32,395 nt of DNA from Armatimonadota bacterium (GCA_030650495.1 JAUSEB010000212.1:1-32395), one strand, 5' to 3'; counted from the stretch's first letter, positions 4,181-28,269 are shown. Notes: generated from the letters alone by a model not told the origin. Translations and numbers: made by a program.

Positions 4181-7100
4181 ATGAGCGTCAATAACGAACA
4201 AACGAATAATCCGATTGGAGCGGCGCTGGTGTGCGGCGGCGGTATCGCGGGCATACAGTCCGCGCTCGACCTCGCCAATTCCGGCTACAAGGTCTATCTA
4301 ATCGAGAAGTCGGCGTCCATCGGCGGCAAGATGGCGCAATTGGATAAGACTTTCCCGACCGGCGACTGCGCCACGTGTATCATCTCGCCTAAACTCGTCG
4401 AGTGCGTCCGCAATCTGAATATAGAGATTCTTACTCAATCACAGATCGAAGATATGACCGGCGAGCCTGGAAACTTCAAGGTGAAGATCAGGCAGAAGGC
4501 AAGATTTGTCGACATCGGCAAATGCAACTCCTGCGGCGACTGCGTAAAGGTCTGCCCCGTGCAAACACCTGACGTTTTCAACCGCGGCTTATCGACCACG
4601 ACGGCCATACATAAGGTTTCGGCGCAGGCTGCTCCGAACGCTTATGTCATCGCTAAGAAAGAACGCCCACCCTGCGTCTCGGCCTGTCCGATGGGCCAGA
4701 ACGCGCAGGCTTACGTCGCTCTTATAGCAAAAGGCAAATATGCCGAAGCTGCTGAGATAATCCGGCAGGACAATCCCCTGCCCCTCATCTGCGGCTATGT
4801 CTGCCACCGGCCTTGCGAAAGCGAATGCCAGCAGGGAAGATACGGCGAATCGGTGTCTATAAGAGATCTGAAGCGATTCGCCATTGAGAACGAACCAACT
4901 GCGCCAAAGACAGAGATGGCTGCGAAGCGTGAGGAGAAGGTCGCGATTATCGGCTCCGGTCCGGCGGGCCTCGGCGCGGCGGACTATCTTGCGCGAAAAG
5001 GCTACGGCGTTACGATGTTCGAAGCCTCGCCTGTTCCCGGCGGAATGATGCGGGCGGGAATACCAGATTTCCGGCTTCCACGCGAAGTTATTGACAACGA
5101 GATACAGCAAATCTTGGATTTGGGAGTTGAACTGAAAACCAGCTCCCCTATCGGTTCGTTTCTTACGCTCGACTGGCTGCTGCAAAACGGCTACAGCGCA
5201 GTGTTCGCCGCGGTCGGAGCGCAAAAAAGCTCCAGCCTGGGGATTGACGGGGAGAATCTCGACGGCGTTCGCCCCGGCATTGAGTTCATACGCAAGGTGA
5301 ACCTCGGCGAGCACGTTCAAATTGGCGCGAGAGTGGCCGTGATTGGCGCGGGCAACGCCGCAATGGATATAGCCCGCACGGCGATTCGGCTCGGCGCGAA
5401 GGAAGTCACCATCGTATATCGACGCACGAAAAAGGAAATGCCCGCCGATCCGGTGGAGGTCGAAGACGCCCTAGCCGAAGGCGTTAAATTCGTTTTTCTT
5501 ACCAATCCCAAACGGTTTGTCGGCAAGAACGGCAAACTCACGGGAATCGAGTGCCTGCGGATGAAGCTCTCTGACGATGTTGACGCATCGGGCCGAAGGC
5601 GGCCAGCGCCGGTCGAGAAGTCAGAGCATATTATCGAATGCGACGAAGCGATACTAGCCACCGGTCAGACTCCCGATATGGGATTTGCGACTGGGGCAAA
5701 TATCAGCGTCAACAAGTGGGGACTGTTAAAAGTCGATCCGGTCACTCTGGCAACCAACAAGCCCGGAGTGTTCGCTGGCGGCGATGTCGTCGCGGGAGCG
5801 GGAACTTTGAGCGAGGCAGTCGCGGCTGGCAAAAGAGCGGCTGAATCCATCGACAGGTTTATCAACGGCGAGAATTTAGCCGATGGCAGGTCAGCCGACC
5901 CGCGCGTTTGGACCGAAGAACAGCATCAGGAGTTAGAAAAGGTTCATTGGCGGGAGAAACGTCAGCGGAGCGCAAGAATCAAAGCAGAGCACGGCGCTAC
6001 TTACACCACAGAGCAGGCAGTAGCGGAAGCTGAGAGATGTCTTGCTTGCGGGATTTGCTGCGAATGTATGGAATGCGTGAAGGCTTGCCAGCCAAAGGCG
6101 ATTTTCCATGATATGCAGGACCAGACGCGCGAGCTTGAGGTCGGCGCGGTCATTCTTGCTCCCGGTTATGAGGAGTTCGACGCCCGGCTGCGCGGTGAAT
6201 TTGGCTTTGGCCGTTATCCGAACGTGGTCACAAACGTGCAATTTGAGAGGATGCTTTCGGCAAGCGGTCCGTTCGGAGGACATGTGCAGCGTCCGGCGGA
6301 CGGCGGCGAGCCAAAGAAGATCGCGTTCATCCAGTGTGTAGGCTCGCGCGACACGACAAATGGTAATCCGTATTGCTCGTCAGTCTGCTGCATGGCGGCA
6401 ATCAAGGAAGCTGTCATCGCCAAGGAGCACACGCCCGGTCTGGAAGCAACCATTTTTTACACCGATATACGCGCATTTGGAAAAGATTTCGACCGTTACT
6501 ATGAACGCGCAAAGGCCGGCGGCGTGAACTTCACCCGCAGCATGGTCTCCCGCGTTGTCGAGATGCCGGGGTCTAAGAATTTGCGGCTTTCTTATATCAA
6601 GGATGGCAAGCCTTTTGACGAAGAGTTTGACATAGTTGTGCTTTCCACCGGAATCCGTCCGAGTAAAGAAGCCATACGGACTGCCAAGGCGGTTGGCGTT
6701 GAATTGAGCGACTGCGGGTTCTGCAAGACGGACGAATTTGCGACAGTATCGGCGTCTCGTAATGGAGTATTCGTCGCGGGCGCGTTCCAAGAGCCAAAAG
6801 ACATCCCTGAAACCATTACTCAAGCCAGCGCGGCGGCGGCAATGGCAATGGAATTGCTTGCGCCCGCGCGAGGATCTCTTGCTGCTGAGAAGGTCTATCC
6901 TAAGGAACATGATTTCACCGATGCGCCGCCGAGGATTGGCGTGTTCGTCTGCCACTGTGGGATCAACATATCCTCAGTCGTGTATGTTGACCAGGTTGTC
7001 GAGGCCGCCAAAACTATGCCGGGTGTGGCCTTTGCTGAAAACCAGATTTACGCCTGCGCTGACAACACCCAAGAACGGTTGAAAGAGATCATCAAGGAGC

Positions 7101-8608
7101 ATAATCTGAACCGCCTTATCGTCGCTTCATGCTCTCCAAGAACTCACGAAGCGTTATTCAGAGAAACCGCGCGGGAGTGTGGGCTGAATCCCTATTTAGT
7201 CGATATGGCAAATATACGCGATCAATGCTCGTGGGTGCACTCGAACAACCGCGAAGCCGCTACGGAGAAGGCGATTGACCTCGTGCGGATGGCGGTAGGC
7301 AGGACTGCAAGATTGGCTTCATTGACGACCGAAGAGCTTCCCGTCGCGCAGTCAGCGTTGATACTAGGCGGAGGCCCCAGCGGGATTGCGGCGGCGTTGT
7401 CGCTTGCGAACCAGGGTTATCGAACACATTTGGTCGAAAAGGCAGCGCAATTGGGCGGACGGCTGAGCGCCGGAACGCTTCGAGATAAGATGACGGCTGA
7501 TGTGACTAACCACCCGCTGATCTCGGTCTATCTCTCTTCACAGCTTGCGGCGCTACAAGGGCACGTCGGCAACTTCACAAGTGAGATCAAGACTACTGCC
7601 GGAACTAAGACCGTGACTCATGGAGCGATTGTGATCGCAACCGGCGGCGTCGAGCATAAGCCGAACGAATATCTATATGGCCAGGATTCGCGTGTAATGA
7701 CTCAGCGTGAATTAGAAGCCAAATTCGCGGCAGATTCGGTTGACTTGCCTAAGAACGCGGTCGTTGCAATGATTCAGTGCGTCGGCTCGCGGAACGAAGA
7801 AAGGCCTTTCTGCTCACGCTCTTGCTGTACGGACGCGGTGAAGAACGCAATTCGTGTTAAAGAACTGCGCCCTGATGCGAACGTGGTCGTGCTATACCGC
7901 GATATGCGGACCTACGGGACTAACGAGCTTTATTATCAGAAAGCGCGTGAGCTTGGCGTGATGTTCTTCAGATATGAGCAGGAGGAACCGCCACAAGTTA
8001 TCGGCGGCGAGTCTCCGACGCTAAAGTTTTTCGATCATGACCTCGGCCTGCAAATGGAGTTGAAGCCGGACTTGCTGGTCCTATCAACGGGAACATCGCC
8101 TGCGTTGGATAATCAGGCTGTTTCCGAACTGGCGAAGATACCATTGAACAACGACGGCTTCTTCTTGGAAGCGCATGTGAAGCTCAGGCCGGTGGATTTC
8201 GCCTCGGAAGGCATTTTCCTTTGCGGAAGCGCTCACTCGCCCAAGGGAACCGCTGAGAATATTCAGCAGGGCCGGGCGGCGGCTGGCCGGGCGGCCACCA
8301 TTTTGAGCAAAAAGAGTATGATCGTCGGCGGGCAGGTGAGCAAGGTGGACATTCGCAAATGCGTGTCTTGTCTTACCTGCGTGAAGGTCTGCCCTTACGG
8401 CGCTCCTGAGATTAGTCCGAATAACGGCAAGAACCGGGTGGAGATTCAGGCGGCGAAGTGCATGGGCTGCGGAAGCTGCGCGGCGGAATGCCCGGCGAAG
8501 GCAATTCAATTGCAGCATTTCATGGACGCGCAGGTTGCAGCTGCAATCGAAGCTTTGTTGGAAGATATAACTGTCAGCTGTCAGCTGACAGCTGACAGTT
8601 TGGAGTAA
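4181..8608 (+). CDS. hdrA: Giant HdrA: two HdrA flavoprotein units with an inserted GltD/NfnB-like NAD(P)H oxidoreductase module
   Basis: This protein has 1475 residues, far longer than ordinary HdrA. Residues 15-43 are an FAD dinucleotide-binding fold. Cys63/66 and nearby residues match the HdrA Cys-rich motif, and 115-125 begins a ferredoxin motif. Residues about 160-608 are a GltD-like insertion: Cys165, 169, 204, 208, 212 and 216, FAD site GSGPAG near 258-263, and a second nucleotide site GAGNAA near 389-394 for NAD(P)H. HdrA sequence resumes with a Cys cluster at 620-636. Residues 916-1385 form a second HdrA copy, starting with the CHCG motif and with another FAD site at 1062-1068. Two [4Fe-4S] motifs close the protein (Cys1394-1404 and 1427-1437). 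I infer that NAD(P)H electrons enter the Hdr complex through the insertion, with flavin-based bifurcation possible. The last 12 or so residues are encoded by a palindromic repeat. Confidence 0.9.
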   Translation: MSVNNEQTNNPIGAALVCGGGIAGIQSALDLANSGYKVYLIEKSASIGGKMAQLDKTFPTGDCATCIISPKLVECVRNLNIEILTQSQIEDMTGEPGNFKVKIRQKARFVDIGKCNSCGDCVKVCPVQTPDVFNRGLSTTTAIHKVSAQAAPNAYVIAKKERPPCVSACPMGQNAQAYVALIAKGKYAEAAEIIRQDNPLPLICGYVCHRPCESECQQGRYGESVSIRDLKRFAIENEPTAPKTEMAAKREEKVAIIGSGPAGLGAADYLARKGYGVTMFEASPVPGGMMRAGIPDFRLPREVIDNEIQQILDLGVELKTSSPIGSFLTLDWLLQNGYSAVFAAVGAQKSSSLGIDGENLDGVRPGIEFIRKVNLGEHVQIGARVAVIGAGNAAMDIARTAIRLGAKEVTIVYRRTKKEMPADPVEVEDALAEGVKFVFLTNPKRFVGKNGKLTGIECLRMKLSDDVDASGRRRPAPVEKSEHIIECDEAILATGQTPDMGFATGANISVNKWGLLKVDPVTLATNKPGVFAGGDVVAGAGTLSEAVAAGKRAAESIDRFINGENLADGRSADPRVWTEEQHQELEKVHWREKRQRSARIKAEHGATYTTEQAVAEAERCLACGICCECMECVKACQPKAIFHDMQDQTRELEVGAVILAPGYEEFDARLRGEFGFGRYPNVVTNVQFERMLSASGPFGGHVQRPADGGEPKKIAFIQCVGSRDTTNGNPYCSSVCCMAAIKEAVIAKEHTPGLEATIFYTDIRAFGKDFDRYYERAKAGGVNFTRSMVSRVVEMPGSKNLRLSYIKDGKPFDEEFDIVVLSTGIRPSKEAIRTAKAVGVELSDCGFCKTDEFATVSASRNGVFVAGAFQEPKDIPETITQASAAAAMAMELLAPARGSLAAEKVYPKEHDFTDAPPRIGVFVCHCGINISSVVYVDQVVEAAKTMPGVAFAENQIYACADNTQERLKEIIKEHNLNRLIVASCSPRTHEALFRETARECGLNPYLVDMANIRDQCSWVHSNNREAATEKAIDLVRMAVGRTARLASLTTEELPVAQSALILGGGPSGIAAALSLANQGYRTHLVEKAAQLGGRLSAGTLRDKMTADVTNHPLISVYLSSQLAALQGHVGNFTSEIKTTAGTKTVTHGAIVIATGGVEHKPNEYLYGQDSRVMTQRELEAKFAADSVDLPKNAVVAMIQCVGSRNEERPFCSRSCCTDAVKNAIRVKELRPDANVVVLYRDMRTYGTNELYYQKARELGVMFFRYEQEEPPQVIGGESPTLKFFDHDLGLQMELKPDLLVLSTGTSPALDNQAVSELAKIPLNNDGFFLEAHVKLRPVDFASEGIFLCGSAHSPKGTAENIQQGRAAAGRAATILSKKSMIVGGQVSKVDIRKCVSCLTCVKVCPYGAPEISPNNGKNRVEIQAAKCMGCGSCAAECPAKAIQLQHFMDAQVAAAIEALLEDITVSCQLTADSLE
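8569..8600. repeat. 32-bp perfect palindrome with 7-bp period, coding for the HdrA C-terminus
   Basis: The sequence is its own reverse complement over 32 bp and steps in heptamers (TCAGCTG, TCAGCTG, ACAGCTG). It is translated as the last residues of HdrA and ends 2 bp before the GGAG ribosome binding site of the mvhD-like gene. A near-identical 34-bp copy lies at 28236-28269. It could form an RNA hairpin next to that site. Confidence 0.9.
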
Positions 8609-9054: not shown

Positions 9055-9737
9055 TAGTCGCTCATCGCAAGAACATACAGGATTTGAAGTCGGCCCTGGC
9101 CGAATATAAGAAAATACTCGTGCTCGGTTGCGGAACGTGCATGACCGTTTGCCTGGCTGGTGGCGAGCGGGAGGTCGGGATGATAAGCTCCGCGCTGCGC
9201 ATCGCCTATCGGGTGGACGGGCAGGAGCATGAACTTATCGAAGCGACCATCGAACGCCAGTGCGAGAACCAGTTTATGGAGGACATCCTGCCGCTGGTTC
9301 AGGAAGCCGATGCGATTCTTTCGCTTGGTTGCGGCGCGGGTGTTCAGGCGATGGCTGAGCGATATCCGAACAAGCCTATCTATCCCGGCGTTGACACCAA
9401 GTTCATCGGTATTCTACAGGAACAGGGCATTTGGACCGAAAAGTGCGCCGCATGCGGCAAATGCATCATCGGCGCTTATGGGACCGTCTGCCCGATAACT
9501 AGATGCTCCAAGCAACTAACCGAAGGTCCATGCGGCGGCGCGCGCGACGGTAAGTGCGAAGTCTCCCCCGAAATCGAATGCGGCTGGCAGCTTATCTACA
9601 ACCGGCTAAAGGCTTTAGGTCAGCTTGACCTCTTGCTGGAACCGGCCCCGCTGACCGACTGGTCAAAAAGCCACGAAGGCGGCTGTAGAAAGATCGTGCG
9701 AGAAGATCAGAGGATAAGGAACCCGGCTGGGGGATAG
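9051..9737 (+). CDS. metV: MetV-like protein (methylenetetrahydrofolate reductase C-terminal / zinc-FeS domain)
   Basis: This 228-residue protein matches the MTHFR_C family. It has an N-terminal Cys27/30/34 motif and a Cys-rich C-terminal part with CAACGKC near 135-141 and the GPCGGARDGKC signature near 165-175. In acetogens MetV pairs with the flavoprotein MetF to form methylene-tetrahydrofolate reductase, and with HdrABC-MvhD a larger complex. Here metF is absent from the window, so MetV may act as an iron-sulfur adaptor or pair with a distant MetF. GGAGGAG lies 8 bp before the ATG. The TAG stop is the first codon-sized unit of a heptamer array (9735-9769), so the true end may have been changed by the repeat. 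Confidence 0.85.
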   Translation: MIVAHRKNIQDLKSALAEYKKILVLGCGTCMTVCLAGGEREVGMISSALRIAYRVDGQEHELIEATIERQCENQFMEDILPLVQEADAILSLGCGAGVQAMAERYPNKPIYPGVDTKFIGILQEQGIWTEKCAACGKCIIGAYGTVCPITRCSKQLTEGPCGGARDGKCEVSPEIECGWQLIYNRLKALGQLDLLLEPAPLTDWSKSHEGGCRKIVREDQRIRNPAGG

Positions 9738-9769
9738 TCGGTAGTCGATAGTCGTTAGTCGATAGTAGA
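9735..9769. repeat. Heptamer tandem array, unit TAGTCGN, about five copies
   Basis: The units are TAGTCGG, TAGTCGA, TAGTCGT, TAGTCGA and TAGTAGA. The array contains the stop codon of metV (9735-9737, + strand) and the stop codon of the convergent membrane-protein gene (9757-9755, - strand), plus the final Ile-Asp codons of the latter. Confidence 0.85.
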
Positions 9770-10189
9770 TTTGAGACGCGACATACGCTTACCTATTAAC
9801 CCAGCAAGAGCTACTAAAATAATATCTGCTAGCAACAACGGCCACGCCGACAACGCTAAAAACCATTGAGTGTACGTCAATACAATACCCCATACACAAG
9901 CAACCACAAAGCCATACTCACCACCGAGCATCCGCATTTGATATTTCTTAGCTCCCCAGCATCGAAACCAAGCCGCTGCTACTCCCGCGGCAAGCGAACT
10001 TAGACCGATTATAGCGTGAATCCATACTCCAAGTTTCAGTAATACCAACGAATCAGCAAAAGACGGAAGCATCCTCAACATAAGACCAAGTATTAGGCAC
10101 ATAGTCGCCCCGCCTACGCCAATCCCAAATACAGGAGAGAACACTACTATATACAGGCGTTGGGATCGCATTTTGTTCGCCTCAATCAT
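9755..10189 (-). CDS. Small integral membrane protein of unknown function
   Basis: I do not recognise this 144-residue protein. It has about four hydrophobic segments separated by short Arg/Lys loops: near residues 10-35, 50-75, 90-110 and 112-130. It has no Cys pairs or heme motifs. An in-frame TTG at 10222 would add 11 residues, but the ATG at 10189 has GGGAGA 5 bp upstream and is preferred. The gene converges on metV and ends in the shared heptamer array. It looks monocistronic, divergent from the OsmC gene. It could be an electron-transport accessory or a stand-alone membrane protein; nothing in the sequence decides. Confidence 0.65.
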   Translation of the reverse strand: MIEANKMRSQRLYIVVFSPVFGIGVGGATMCLILGLMLRMLPSFADSLVLLKLGVWIHAIIGLSSLAAGVAAAWFRCWGAKKYQMRMLGGEYGFVVACVWGIVLTYTQWFLALSAWPLLLADIILVALAGLIGKRMSRLKSTID

Positions 10190-10833: not shown

Positions 10834-12984
10834 TCAGCGCAGGAGCCGCGTTGAATTGGCAATTACGCAAAGGCTGCTTATGAACATCGCTGTAGCCGCT
10901 ATAAGCGGATGTACGAATCCAAAGAACGCAAGAGCGACGGCGATTGAATTATAGCCGAACGCCCACCACAAGTTCTGCTTGATTATCCGATAGGTCAGCT
11001 TCGATAAGTCCAACACCCACGGGATGCGGGACAGGTCATCGCCAAGCAGTATCACATCGCTCGATTCCCGCGCGAGATCGGAGCCACCGCCAATTGCGAT
11101 CCCGACGGAAGCCTCCGCAAGAGCAGCCGCGTCGTTAATGCCGTCACCCACCATTGCCACGGCGGTTCCATTAGACTCGCGCGCCTTTTTGACCACGGCG
11201 GCTTTCTCATCGGGTGCACATTCGGCAAATACATCATCAATATTCAGTTCGCGAGCTAATCGGTATGTGGGTCCCTTTAGATCTCCCGACAAAACAGCCG
11301 GTTTTACGCCGGCTGCCGTCAGCAATTCGATGGCAGCAATAGCTTCCGGGCGGATACTGTCTTGCAGTGAAATAGCGGCCTTGACGGCGCCGTCCCATCC
11401 AATATATATTACCGATAATGGGTCGGATTCTTCAGCGACAGTAAACGATTCCGGCGCTGAATGTCCCTCAGATAATAGTTTTAGCGAACCCACTGCGACC
11501 TGCTTTGTTTCCCCATTTATTGCGACTGTCCCTATTACTCCCTGGCCGGGAATAGCGCGGAAGCCGGTGACATTTCCTATTGGAAGACCGAGCGCTCGAG
11601 CTTCAGCCACAATGGCGTTTGCTATTGCGTGCTCACTTCCGGCTTCGACAGCCGCCGCCCATGCAATGGCTTCGTCTGCGGTAATGTCGTCTGAGGCCAG
11701 CATAACTTTTGCTATTGTCAAGCGATTGTCGGTGAGGGAGCCGGTCTTGTCGAAGAATATTCTTTTGATTGCGGGCAGGCGTTCGAGTATCTCTCCAGAA
11801 CGGATTAACACGCCGGAATGTGCGGCCTTTCCTATTGCGAGACATGTCGCCATTGGCGTTGCCAGACCAAGAGCGCATGGGCACGAAACCACCAGCACGG
11901 CCAAAGCGCATAGGCCGGCCCGCTCCCAGTTGCCAATAATACCGCCCCAATATACCGCCGCTCCCGCGGATAGAAGCCAGACCAGCGGTACAAATACGGA
12001 TGCGACACGCCCCGCCAGTCTCTCGATTGGAGCGTAGTTCTCCTGCGCTTGAAGAACCATTTTCCGTATCTGCTCGACCATTGAGTCAGCGCCTACAGCC
12101 GCTGCCTCTACAGTGATATAGCCGTCGCAGTTCACGCTGGAGCCATAGACCCTGTCGCCGGGAGAGCATGAACGCGGCCTGGATTCTCCGGTAAAAGAGG
12201 ATTCCTCGACAAGACAACTGCCGGATATAATCAGGCCATCAGCGGGGATGCGCTCACCGGGTTTCACAATCAGTAGGTCGCCTATGCGCACATCTTGAGA
12301 TGAAATATCTTCTTCTCGCCCGTCACGAAGAACCCGCGCCATATCAGGGGTCAATTCGATCATCTCACGGATTGCCTTGGATGTCCGGTTTTTGGAAATT
12401 GCTTCCAGAAGCCGTCCAAGAGTCACTATGAAAAGAAGCATAGTGGCGGTGTCAAAATACACATGACCAGAGCCATATAACACGTTCGCGGCGCTTACGA
12501 AAAACGCCGCGAATGAGCCGGTCACTATGAGCGCGTCCGTGCTTATCCTGCCATACCGCAACTCCCTGGCCGCTGCCACGAGAAATGAGAATCCCAAGAT
12601 GATCATTGCCGGAGTGGACAGCGCAAGCATAGCCCACCTCATAGCGTGAATCGCGGATGCGCCAAGAGCGCCGGGCGATTGCGTGTATAAGATAATGCTA
12701 ATCATCATAACGTTCATGGATAGAAACGCGCCGACACCGAGCCTGAGCGTTATCCATGCGGCAACTCCGTCTCCACCTTGAGAGCCGATGATTTGCTGGA
12801 CGAGATAGCAGCCATAACAGCAGAAGCGGCGCTCGTCGTCCGGGGAGTAGCCTTTGCCGGTGAAAATCAATCCGCAATAGTCGCAGGAGTGATGAGTGCT
12901 GAGCGCTGAGAGATGAGTGCTGAGTGATGAGTGCTGAGCGCTGAGTGATGAGTGCTGAGTGATGAGTGATGAGTGATGAGTCAT
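10834..12984 (-). CDS. ccoI: Copper-translocating P-type ATPase, CcoI/FixI-like, with a repeat-encoded N-terminus
   Basis: This 716-residue P1B-type ATPase has the Cys-rich N-terminal domain of CcoI/FixI proteins (CDYCG at 34 and CCYGC near 54) but no HMA domain. CPC in the membrane lies near residue 366, the phosphorylated Asp in DKTGS near 409 (Ser where Thr is usual), and GDGIND near 611. CcoI-type pumps export copper for insertion into cbb3 oxidase, which is encoded nearby. Residues 1-33 ([14 protein letters not shown] and similar heptads) are translated from a 13-unit 7-bp repeat array, and the only usable start codon (12984) lies at its edge. Start and upstream stop overlap as ATGA. AGGA about 4 bp before the ATG is a weak site. 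Confidence 0.9.
12891..12981. repeat. Heptamer array, 13 units of GATGAGT/GCTGAGT type
   Basis: Exactly thirteen consecutive 7-bp units fill 91 bp, mostly GATGAGT, GCTGAGT and GCTGAGC. Because 7 is not a multiple of 3, the reading frame repeats every 21 bp, giving a seven-residue repeat in the ATPase. It contains the stop region of the four-helix-bundle gene and abuts the ATPase start. Confidence 0.95.
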
Positions 12985-13358
12985 GGCTTCCTGAGTTTCT
13001 TCTCTATAGATATTCTTAGTCCACCAAGTATGCGACCAACTTCTTCCGCTTGAGCCAAAAGCTTCTCAGTAGTAGACTTATCAAGATAGCCTACATCCAT
13101 AGCGATGTAAATCTGTGCACGTACTTCTGCGCAAGAGCTTTTCGCGATTGAGATGAATTGGTGGAATTCGCCTGGTCTCATGCGTTCAAATCCTTCAGCG
13201 ATGTTGGACATAATCGACACAGAAGCTCGTTGTAACTGCCCAGACAACCCAAAATCCCTTGCAAACGCGCCTATACGGGTTACTCTATAAATTTCGCGTG
13301 TCAACTCCCTAGCCTTCTGCCAGGCGATCAAGTCTTCAAATCTCTCAATTCTGCTCAA
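12981..13358 (-). CDS. Four-helix-bundle protein (23S rRNA intervening-sequence / TIGR02436 family)
   Basis: This 125-residue all-helical protein has the family signature: [18 protein letters not shown] near the start, then [23 protein letters not shown] near residues 38-60. It is related to proteins encoded in 23S rRNA intervening sequences and to the Avd accessory protein; the function of most members is unknown. The start is TTG 13358 with AAGGAG 8 bp upstream, and that site is partly made by a heptamer unit. The stop overlaps the ATPase start (ATGA). The gene is flanked on both sides by inverted heptamer arrays and separates two genes that suit a copper/oxidase operon, so it looks like an inserted cassette. 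Confidence 0.88.
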
Positions 13359-13370
13359 TCTCTTTTCTCC

Positions 13371-13433
13371 TTACTCAGCGCTCCTTACTCAGCGCTCGTT
13401 ACTCAGCACTCGTTACTCAGCACTCGTTACTCA
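13371..13433. repeat. Heptamer array, 9 units (14-bp dimer repeat), inverse of the array at 12891
   Basis: The units alternate TTACTCA with GCGCTCC, GCGCTCG or GCACTCG, 63 bp in all. Read on the minus strand it gives TGAGTAA and CGAGTGC, related to the TGAGTGC units of the other array in opposite orientation. The stop codon of the safE-like gene (13433-13431) is in the last unit, and the ribosome binding site of the four-helix-bundle gene is in the first. Confidence 0.95.
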
Positions 13434-14147
13434 TCGCTGTTCTTCCCCACAACACGATGGTACGCAGCGATTGACGTTGTGGGGCGTTAGCATTACCCCT
13501 GTTACACGTCCTATAGTTAGAAGTCCAATTGCAACAACAACAATCCCTGCTGCGCGCATTCCCATCTTTGCGAACTTACGGTCTAAACCGACGCCGAATA
13601 GTCCCAACGCGAGCAATCCTGGAGCCGTGCCTAAGCCAACCCCTGCCATCAGAGCCATTCCTTGCGGCGCATTATGCGAAGCGGCTGAAATGGCGAGCAT
13701 TCCCATTGGAAGCGGACAGGGAAGAAATCCAACTCCAAGTCCAAGAAGGAACGCGGCAATTGGACCAGGCTCGGTTAGCAACCCGCCTAATATATTCCTA
13801 ATCAGTCCGGCTTCGGAGATTCCCTGGAGCGGTTTGAAAGACGGCAGCCTAATTCCCAACATAACAAGACCGAATATAACCGTGATGAATCCGGCGGCAA
13901 ATCTAAGGACGGGCGCTCCTAGAGCAAAGGCGGTGTTTTTGAATAGTATCGCGCCAAGGGCTGAGACAAGTGTTCCGAGAAATATGTAAGTGAAGGTCTT
14001 GCCGATTACAAAGAGAATTTGGCGCAAAATGACCGATCCCCGATTCGATGACTTTGCAAGATGCAGTGGAAATCCGCCGCACATGCCAAGGCAGTGGGGC
14101 GTCGCGGCGAAACCTGCGATTAATCCCATCAGGAACATAGACCACAT
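13431..14147 (-). CDS. SafE/TauE-like (DsbD_2, COG2836) membrane protein, cbb3 oxidase maturation context
   Basis: This 238-residue protein has about six membrane segments. It opens with the family motif HCLGMCGG (residues 18-25) in the first helix and ends with a Cys-rich tail (CVPSCCG). COG2836 proteins are commonly encoded beside ccoI or other cbb3 genes and are thought to help transport metal or thiol reductant. I infer a role in copper handling for the oxidase encoded 7 kb away. ATG 14147 follows GGGTGAG at good spacing. The stop is in a heptamer array, so the tail could have been altered by it. It is probably the first gene of the safE, four-helix, ccoI unit. Confidence 0.82.
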   Translation of the reverse strand: MWSMFLMGLIAGFAATPHCLGMCGGFPLHLAKSSNRGSVILRQILFVIGKTFTYIFLGTLVSALGAILFKNTAFALGAPVLRFAAGFITVIFGLVMLGIRLPSFKPLQGISEAGLIRNILGGLLTEPGPIAAFLLGLGVGFLPCPLPMGMLAISAASHNAPQGMALMAGVGLGTAPGLLALGLFGVGLDRKFAKMGMRAAGIVVVAIGLLTIGRVTGVMLTPHNVNRCVPSCCGEEQR

Positions 14148-14164: not shown

Positions 14165-14217
14165 AGCTATCAGTTATCAGCCGTCAGCTTTCAGCTGACG
14201 GCTGATAACTGATAGCT
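14165..14217. repeat. Long hairpin, 25-bp perfect arms and 3-base loop, 7-bp period
   Basis: The left arm 14165-14189 and right arm 14193-14217 are exact reverse complements separated by TTC. TCAG recurs every 7 bp in the left arm and CTGA every 7 bp in the right, as in the palindromes at 8569 and 28236. It lies in the leader of the safE-like gene, about 18 bp before its ATG, so it could influence its translation. Confidence 0.92.
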
Positions 14218-28235: not shown

Positions 28236-28269
28236 AAGCTGTCAGCTGTCAGCTGACAGCTGACAGCTT
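28236..28269. repeat. 34-bp perfect palindrome with 7-bp period
   Basis: The sequence equals its own reverse complement and has the same heptamer core (GTCAGCT, TGACAGC) as the palindrome at 8569. It fills the space between the two minus-strand genes, 20 bp before the ATG of the sugar-isomerase gene, where a hairpin could affect its expression. Confidence 0.92.

Follow-up and report, generated by a model that had tools for sequence, protein, structure and literature searches.

An S23-family gene framed by inverted heptamer arrays where safE meets ccoI: a probable one-gene mobile element

The window, i.e. the whole analysed stretch of 32,395 nt from an Armatimonadota bacterium (GCA_030650495.1, JAUSEB010000212.1:1-32395), contains on its minus strand a small gene (12981-13358) with a TTG start and a product of 125 aa. 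It is located between safE (13431-14147, minus strand) as the upstream neighbour, which codes for a SafE-like membrane protein (DsbD_2, PF13386) according to its profile match, and a gene for a ccoI-type heavy-metal P-type ATPase (10834-12984, minus strand) as the downstream neighbour. The small gene encodes a full-length member of the S23 family, as indicated by profile matches to TIGR02436 (111.5 bits, cut-off 24) and PF05635 (122.8 bits, cut-off 33.8), which carry the names “four helix bundle” and 23S-rRNA intervening-sequence protein. Two solved structures of the family, PDB 2GSC for the Xanthomonas campestris protein XCC0516 and PDB 2RLD, match a profile built from 16 S23 relatives. A structure model of the S23 protein from the single sequence is all-helical at low confidence (pLDDT 65), and the match of the protein to the bAvd profile is weak and below the cut-off.

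The S23 gene is framed by two tandem arrays which together with it constitute an element at 12887-13438 (minus strand). In the sense of the gene, the 5′ arm (13367-13438) is G-rich and composed of about ten heptamers, AGTAACG and AGTGCTG alternating, and the 3′ arm (12887-12981) is C-rich with 13.5 heptamers of the types ACTCATC and ACTCAGC. Tandem Repeats Finder delineated the left array at 12887-12985 with a 7-bp period and 14.1 copies, and the right array at 13367-13438 with a 14-bp period and 5.1 copies, corresponding to about ten heptamers alternating between CTCAGCR and CTCSTTA. The period scores of 55.5 (left, period 7) and 48 (right, period 14) compare with best values of 11 and 12 over the whole window in 100 dinucleotide-model shuffles. 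The arrays are inverted relative to each other because the left one scores 54 against the reverse complement of the right one and 13 in direct orientation. Both the positions (12891-12981 and 13371-13433) and the inverse orientation claimed in a previous sequence-only reading therefore hold, the former within a few bases. The same reading had located the stop of one neighbour and the start of the other in or at the arrays, and this is correct as well: the safE stop codon (13431-13433) lies inside the right array, i.e. in the 5′ arm, and the stop codon of S23 and the ATG of ccoI (12982-12984) overlap as ATGA. The 5′ arm also contains AAGGAG just upstream of the S23 start as a possible ribosome site.

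A protein search with SafE revealed five relatives, all with ccoI adjoining safE and none with an S23 gene in between. At four loci (L153, L154, L155 and L157) safE and ccoI are joined directly without any period-7 array at the junction, and their ccoI is homologous to the window ORF from its residue 34 onward, residues 1-33 of that ORF being encoded in frame by the 3′ arm. The sequence-only reading had supposed that the S23 gene interrupts a safE-ccoI operon and had suggested a search for such empty sites; they are present in these four relatives and bear out the interruption. Compared with the empty junction of L153, CAGC-ATTGACCAAACGGCAG-TCCTGC, the element in the window takes the place of some 16 bp. 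In G001, a genome of the same family as the window genome, the identical safE-ccoI junction carries a gene-less ACTCAGA array of 4.5 copies (L156, 2205-2236, G001:C48). It could be left over from a previous insertion, or the array may have preceded the gene. The L156 array encodes the ccoI N-terminus MTQNSELRTQNS, much like the array in the window.

Direct comparisons of filled and empty sites were also possible on plasmids. Two Nostoc plasmids, NZ_CP046706 (L035) and NZ_CP040276 (L038), share a common operon with 92.5-99.7% identity and are reciprocal in that each contains an S23 cassette at a junction which is empty in the other. The first site (A) reads AGGTTCTAGGTTATGC when empty and AGGTTCTA-AATCAGGAGTC...GGATTCTGAT-TATGC when filled, the second (B) GGTAATGGG when empty and GGTAATG-TTAGGGGAAAA...GTGAATT-ATGGG when filled. 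A further site between nrdA and nrdB is filled in Nostoc edaphicum (L041), where S23 runs opposite to the operon, and empty in a Calothrix plasmid (L288). Moreover, an element of ca. 416 bp with 77-82% identity resides in three unrelated plasmid contexts (L038/L290, L039/L291 and L292), and in all three the similarity ends at the outer array edges. What was inserted, at sites which relatives have empty, comprises the S23 gene and both arrays, and the arrays delimit the mobile unit, because the similarity stops at their outer edges. The notion of a mobile cassette, originally put forward for the window alone, is thereby supported by the empty sites and by the recurrence of one element in three unrelated contexts. 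A target-site duplication was found neither at the window site (compared with L153) nor at Nostoc site A and the nrd site; at Nostoc site B a 3-bp ATG repeat is a possible one.

The arrangement at the window locus is widespread. The window genome harbours four more PF05635 matches, two of which (L001 and L004) have inverted heptamer arms whose units, TGGGTGT and AGTTAGG, differ from those of the window. The S23 cassette of L004 (1287-1699, G000:C119), with its AGTTAGG arms, is broken, and inside its S23 gene lies an unrelated stretch resembling another dispersed repeat. L003 (G000:C179), L005 (G000:C16) and L034 are divergent PF05635 members without detectable arms and possibly represent other S23 subfamilies. 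PF05635 is present in 38 of 61 genomes of the phylum, and matching inverted arms accompany most of the 34 S23 loci inspected in this set. A scan of named genomes provided 80 S23 loci from many phyla; an array with a score of at least 9 occurs in both 250-bp flanks of 66% of the 77 testable ones, while of 1093 control windows taken from these loci 9% attain it, counted on one side. Since these windows consist largely of coding sequence, Y1_Tnp genes from the phylum offer a fairer control, and none of 20 is bordered by arrays on both sides (Fisher 2e-8). Altogether, 82 of 111 S23 loci, drawn from this phylum, from named genomes belonging to many phyla and from plasmids, conform to a strict layout rule, and a detectable arm pair is missing in about a quarter. 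Phage records gave no S23 match. Genes of this kind between inverted heptamer arrays, for which the sequence-only reading had advised to look elsewhere, thus recur at many loci, both within the phylum and in named genomes from many others, and plasmids carry them as well.

Within a locus, the arms belong to each other. Among 50 loci selected by array strength alone they always share the period (42 pairs at 7, 8 at 8), and the inverse score with the own partner averages 42.1 versus 10.8 with permuted partners (maximum 18.5 in 2000 permutations); in six of these loci the direct match is better than the inverse one. An ordinary conserved gene with slippage-grown repeats on either side is highly improbable in the light of these data: tandem repeats can grow by slippage, but such growth does not agree with the inverse matching of the arms, with the control windows and Y1_Tnp genes, or with the empty sites. 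A period of 8 on both sides was observed at L007, L012, L053, L062, L073, L077, L103, L106 and L110; strong arm pairs of period 6 or 9 were not seen among the S23 loci. Selection for stop codons in all frames of the 5′ arm was considered for the period-7 arrays and rejected, since 39 of 82 have them versus 37 expected. By eye, L045, L068, L081 and L082 appear to possess additional inverted arms, so that one flank or both resemble complete hairpins, and they are perhaps nested or composite insertions.

The heptamer units vary widely among loci. They are shared in 8 of 10 close S23 protein pairs (relative score above 0.7) and in about 5% of the less similar pairs; the overall correlation between protein and heptamer similarity is weak and driven by the close pairs (Mantel rho 0.09, p 0.04). 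Despite this variation a common unit motif, RNTMRGG, emerges on the strand that is G-rich toward the gene, and its strength exceeds that in any of 30 sets of shuffled units.

Arrays of the same kind also occur without a gene. The window itself contains a near-perfect inverted hairpin, AGCTATCAGTTATCAG.../...CTGATAACTGATAGCT, at or near an ORF junction (14165-14217) and three gene-less arrays at ORF junctions (8571-8598, 9733-9770 and 28237-28268), all detected by Tandem Repeats Finder, the first of which encodes the C-terminal end of a 1475-aa ORF (4181-8608). The window genome yields more than 200 matches to one heptamer pattern (at most 3 mismatches, overlapping matches within an array being counted separately) versus 34 for the reversed pattern. 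At twenty such places arrays of several unit families are found, frequently side by side. Three families fit the S23 copies with arms, likewise three, that were found in this genome, and for the families GTTGAGG, GCTGACA and TAGTGGT none of the S23 copies found is a match. An inverted partner within 150 bp accompanies 12 of 52 strong gene-less arrays, a direct partner none. In 20-kb samples, 22 gene-less arrays (one of them a C-rich low-complexity stretch) were counted in 689 kb of S23-rich genomes versus none in 782 kb of S23-free genomes, corresponding to 7 of 10 versus 0 of 10 genomes with such arrays (p 0.003, the genomes being not phylogenetically independent).

Arrays occurring equally often at loci lacking the gene had been named in advance as an argument against a mobile cassette. 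Gene-less arrays are indeed common and far outnumber the S23 cassettes in the window genome, but among the sampled genomes they are confined to those bearing S23. Because of this confinement, and because their partners are inverted and never direct, we do not regard them as a refutation; they look like gene-less derivatives or relics of S23 elements. The converse relationship, in which the arrays are independent host repeats (formed by STRR-like slippage or belonging to another element) and S23 inserts into them or is retained beside them, would be compatible with the many arrays lacking a gene and with the gene-less array of G001 at the exact window junction. We nevertheless consider it quite unlikely, as the empty sites of L153, L154, L155, L157, L035/L038 and L288 are devoid of arrays, the arms match their own partner inversely and not the arms of other loci, the element retains its arms in three contexts and the sampled S23-free genomes have no such arrays.

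S23 copies are mostly situated between the stop and the start of co-directional genes and in sense with them. This applies to 38 of the 57 loci with ORFs on both sides, compared with 3 in antisense orientation (p about 1e-8; 21 versus 3 in the strict-arm subset, p 3e-4); the remaining loci are located downstream of one gene facing another (11) or between divergent genes (5). The median distance from the upstream stop to the beginning of the 5′ arm is 3.5 bp, and the 3′ arm ends 12.5 bp ahead of the next start. The sense bias could be due to selection rather than to the mechanism. In three Flavobacterium species (L057, L059 and L110) the S23 gene lies between ORFs of ca. 179 and 352-361 aa, which suggests that it either has long been retained at a single site or has entered there more than once.

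The nearest known counterpart is the intervening sequence (IVS) of 23S rRNA. The IVS of Coxiella burnetii, ca. 0.43 kb in size, contains an S23 ORF between complementary ends that form a stem, and GACAGAT repeats, also heptameric, immediately precede the ORF; RNase III cleaves this IVS, which has been proposed to be the remnant of a mobile element (PMC4990558). The window element resembles it in its S23 protein, its similar size and the position of the ORF between complementary ends. In contrast, an IVS resides in helices of 23S rRNA, whereas the S23 elements described here occupy junctions of protein genes on chromosomes and plasmids, end in tandem arrays on both sides and are accompanied by a population of gene-less arrays. 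Rfam families, including rRNA, were detected neither in the window nor around the 20 S23 loci tested, and a location of these loci inside rRNA was rejected on this basis, the window flanks being protein genes. Since it lies outside rRNA, the window element does not fall under the customary definition of an IVS; the best reading is that S23 elements are related to the S23-bearing IVS of 23S rRNA, yet not tied to rRNA.

In the predicted fold of the sense RNA from the window element the arms are paired, at a minimum free energy of -190, versus -163 +/- 7 for shuffles (z -4.0). In an explanation centred on the RNA level, S23 would act like TRAP, as a ring protein with a repeated RG motif, and bind the heptamers of the transcript that encodes it, the arms together with RNase III would serve excision or regulation, and movement would be rare and passive. 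The sense bias in operons, the stem between the arms, the conserved RG-containing unit and the RNase III-cut Coxiella IVS with its S23 ORF and heptamers (PMC4990558) are in line with this explanation. However, taken alone it leaves unexplained the spread across phyla, the repeated movement between contexts and the gene-less arrays, hairpins included, at many loci, and we judge it to be somewhat unlikely.

Alternatively, the cassette might be passive like a MITE and be moved in trans by a Y1/HUH transposase or a reverse transcriptase. Avd of diversity-generating retroelements has a related four-helix fold. Such relatives of S23 work with a reverse transcriptase, and the absence of a recognised transposase from the unit as well as of a clear target duplication would likewise fit a passive cassette. 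Against it, PF00078 reverse transcriptases were not found in the window genome, G001, G002, G011 and G019, nor Y1_Tnp in G008, G010, G013, G019, G028 and G059, all S23-bearing genomes and in part incomplete drafts. An obligatory partner of either type was therefore rejected as improbable in view of these genomes, and we rate trans-mobilization of this kind as unlikely. The window genome, with no PF00078 match found, also differs in this respect from systems with Avd and a diversity-generating retroelement. Compared with IS elements and MITEs relying on a DDE transposase, the S23 arms are likewise inverted and terminate the element but consist of tandem arrays.

We therefore favour a one-gene mobile element of ca. 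0.4-0.55 kb in which an S23-family gene lies between two ends formed by inverted arrays of 7-bp (sometimes 8-bp) units, and assign to this reading a probability of about 0.78. We hold that this S23-heptamer unit, defined by the inverted arrays and the single S23 gene, is a widespread mobile unit; a description of it was not found in the open-access literature on the S23/IVS protein with repeats. S23 likely recognises its own heptamers, because unit and protein lineage travel together, because the common RG-containing motif recurs every 7 nt and because the S23 protein of X. campestris is a ring-shaped pentamer, as cited in PMC4990558. As a ring-forming four-helix protein, S23 might bind the RG-containing heptamers of its own element in a DNA hairpin or in RNA and promote their spread, with gene-less arrays as further targets in trans, a role comparable to that of REP-associated transposases for REP sequences. 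Pairing of the arms in the transcript would give a long stem which RNase III could cut, as in the S23-bearing IVS of 23S rRNA, and such a cut would make the insertion cheap for the host operon.

REP/REPIN sequences and their RAYT (Y1) transposase combine one short gene with many dispersed, inverted or palindromic, gene-less intergenic repeats. Many dispersed gene-less inverted repeats are likewise present in the genome of the S23 element. In contrast, the sole gene of the S23 element is not of the HUH/Y1 type, Y1_Tnp was not found in several S23 genomes, and the S23 repeats are tandem heptamers with a sequence varying by lineage. We know of no nuclease or transposase motif in the four-helix S23 fold. 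A new class of autonomous elements, in which the small non-transposase ring protein S23 and the tandem-heptamer inverted ends would be the whole machinery and the source of the heptamers dispersed in many bacterial genomes, with the 23S rRNA IVS as its special case in rRNA, is conceivable but has, in our view, a little less than an even chance. The link to a known kind is given because the S23-bearing IVS is nearest, and a new class would require that S23 itself acts on the arms.

S23 proteins occur in many phyla with an unexplained function, and the element ties this family to heptamer repeats scattered among bacteria. If the arrays are the ends or offspring of S23 elements, the unexplained excess of heptamers and the origin of the S23-bearing 23S IVS would join here. 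If true, a mobile element enters operons almost seamlessly; in the window, the insertion gives safE its stop codon and ccoI a new start together with a repeat-coded N-terminus. The heptameric repeats GGGAATC of Xanthomonas and GGGGA(T/C)T of Nostoc, described in the accessible text of PMC4692102, are intergenic tandem heptamers with one G-rich strand, those of Xanthomonas forming 70-75 inverted pairs per genome; that text presents them as simple sequence repeats or G-quadruplex formers and contains no link to S23 or mobility. The window arrays resemble heptameric simple sequence repeats and cyanobacterial STRRs in being intergenic tandem heptamers as well. By analogy, the repeats of Xanthomonas and Nostoc are probably gene-less arrays of the S23 type. 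X. campestris is the species both of the strain studied for its heptamers and of the solved S23 protein XCC0516 (2GSC).
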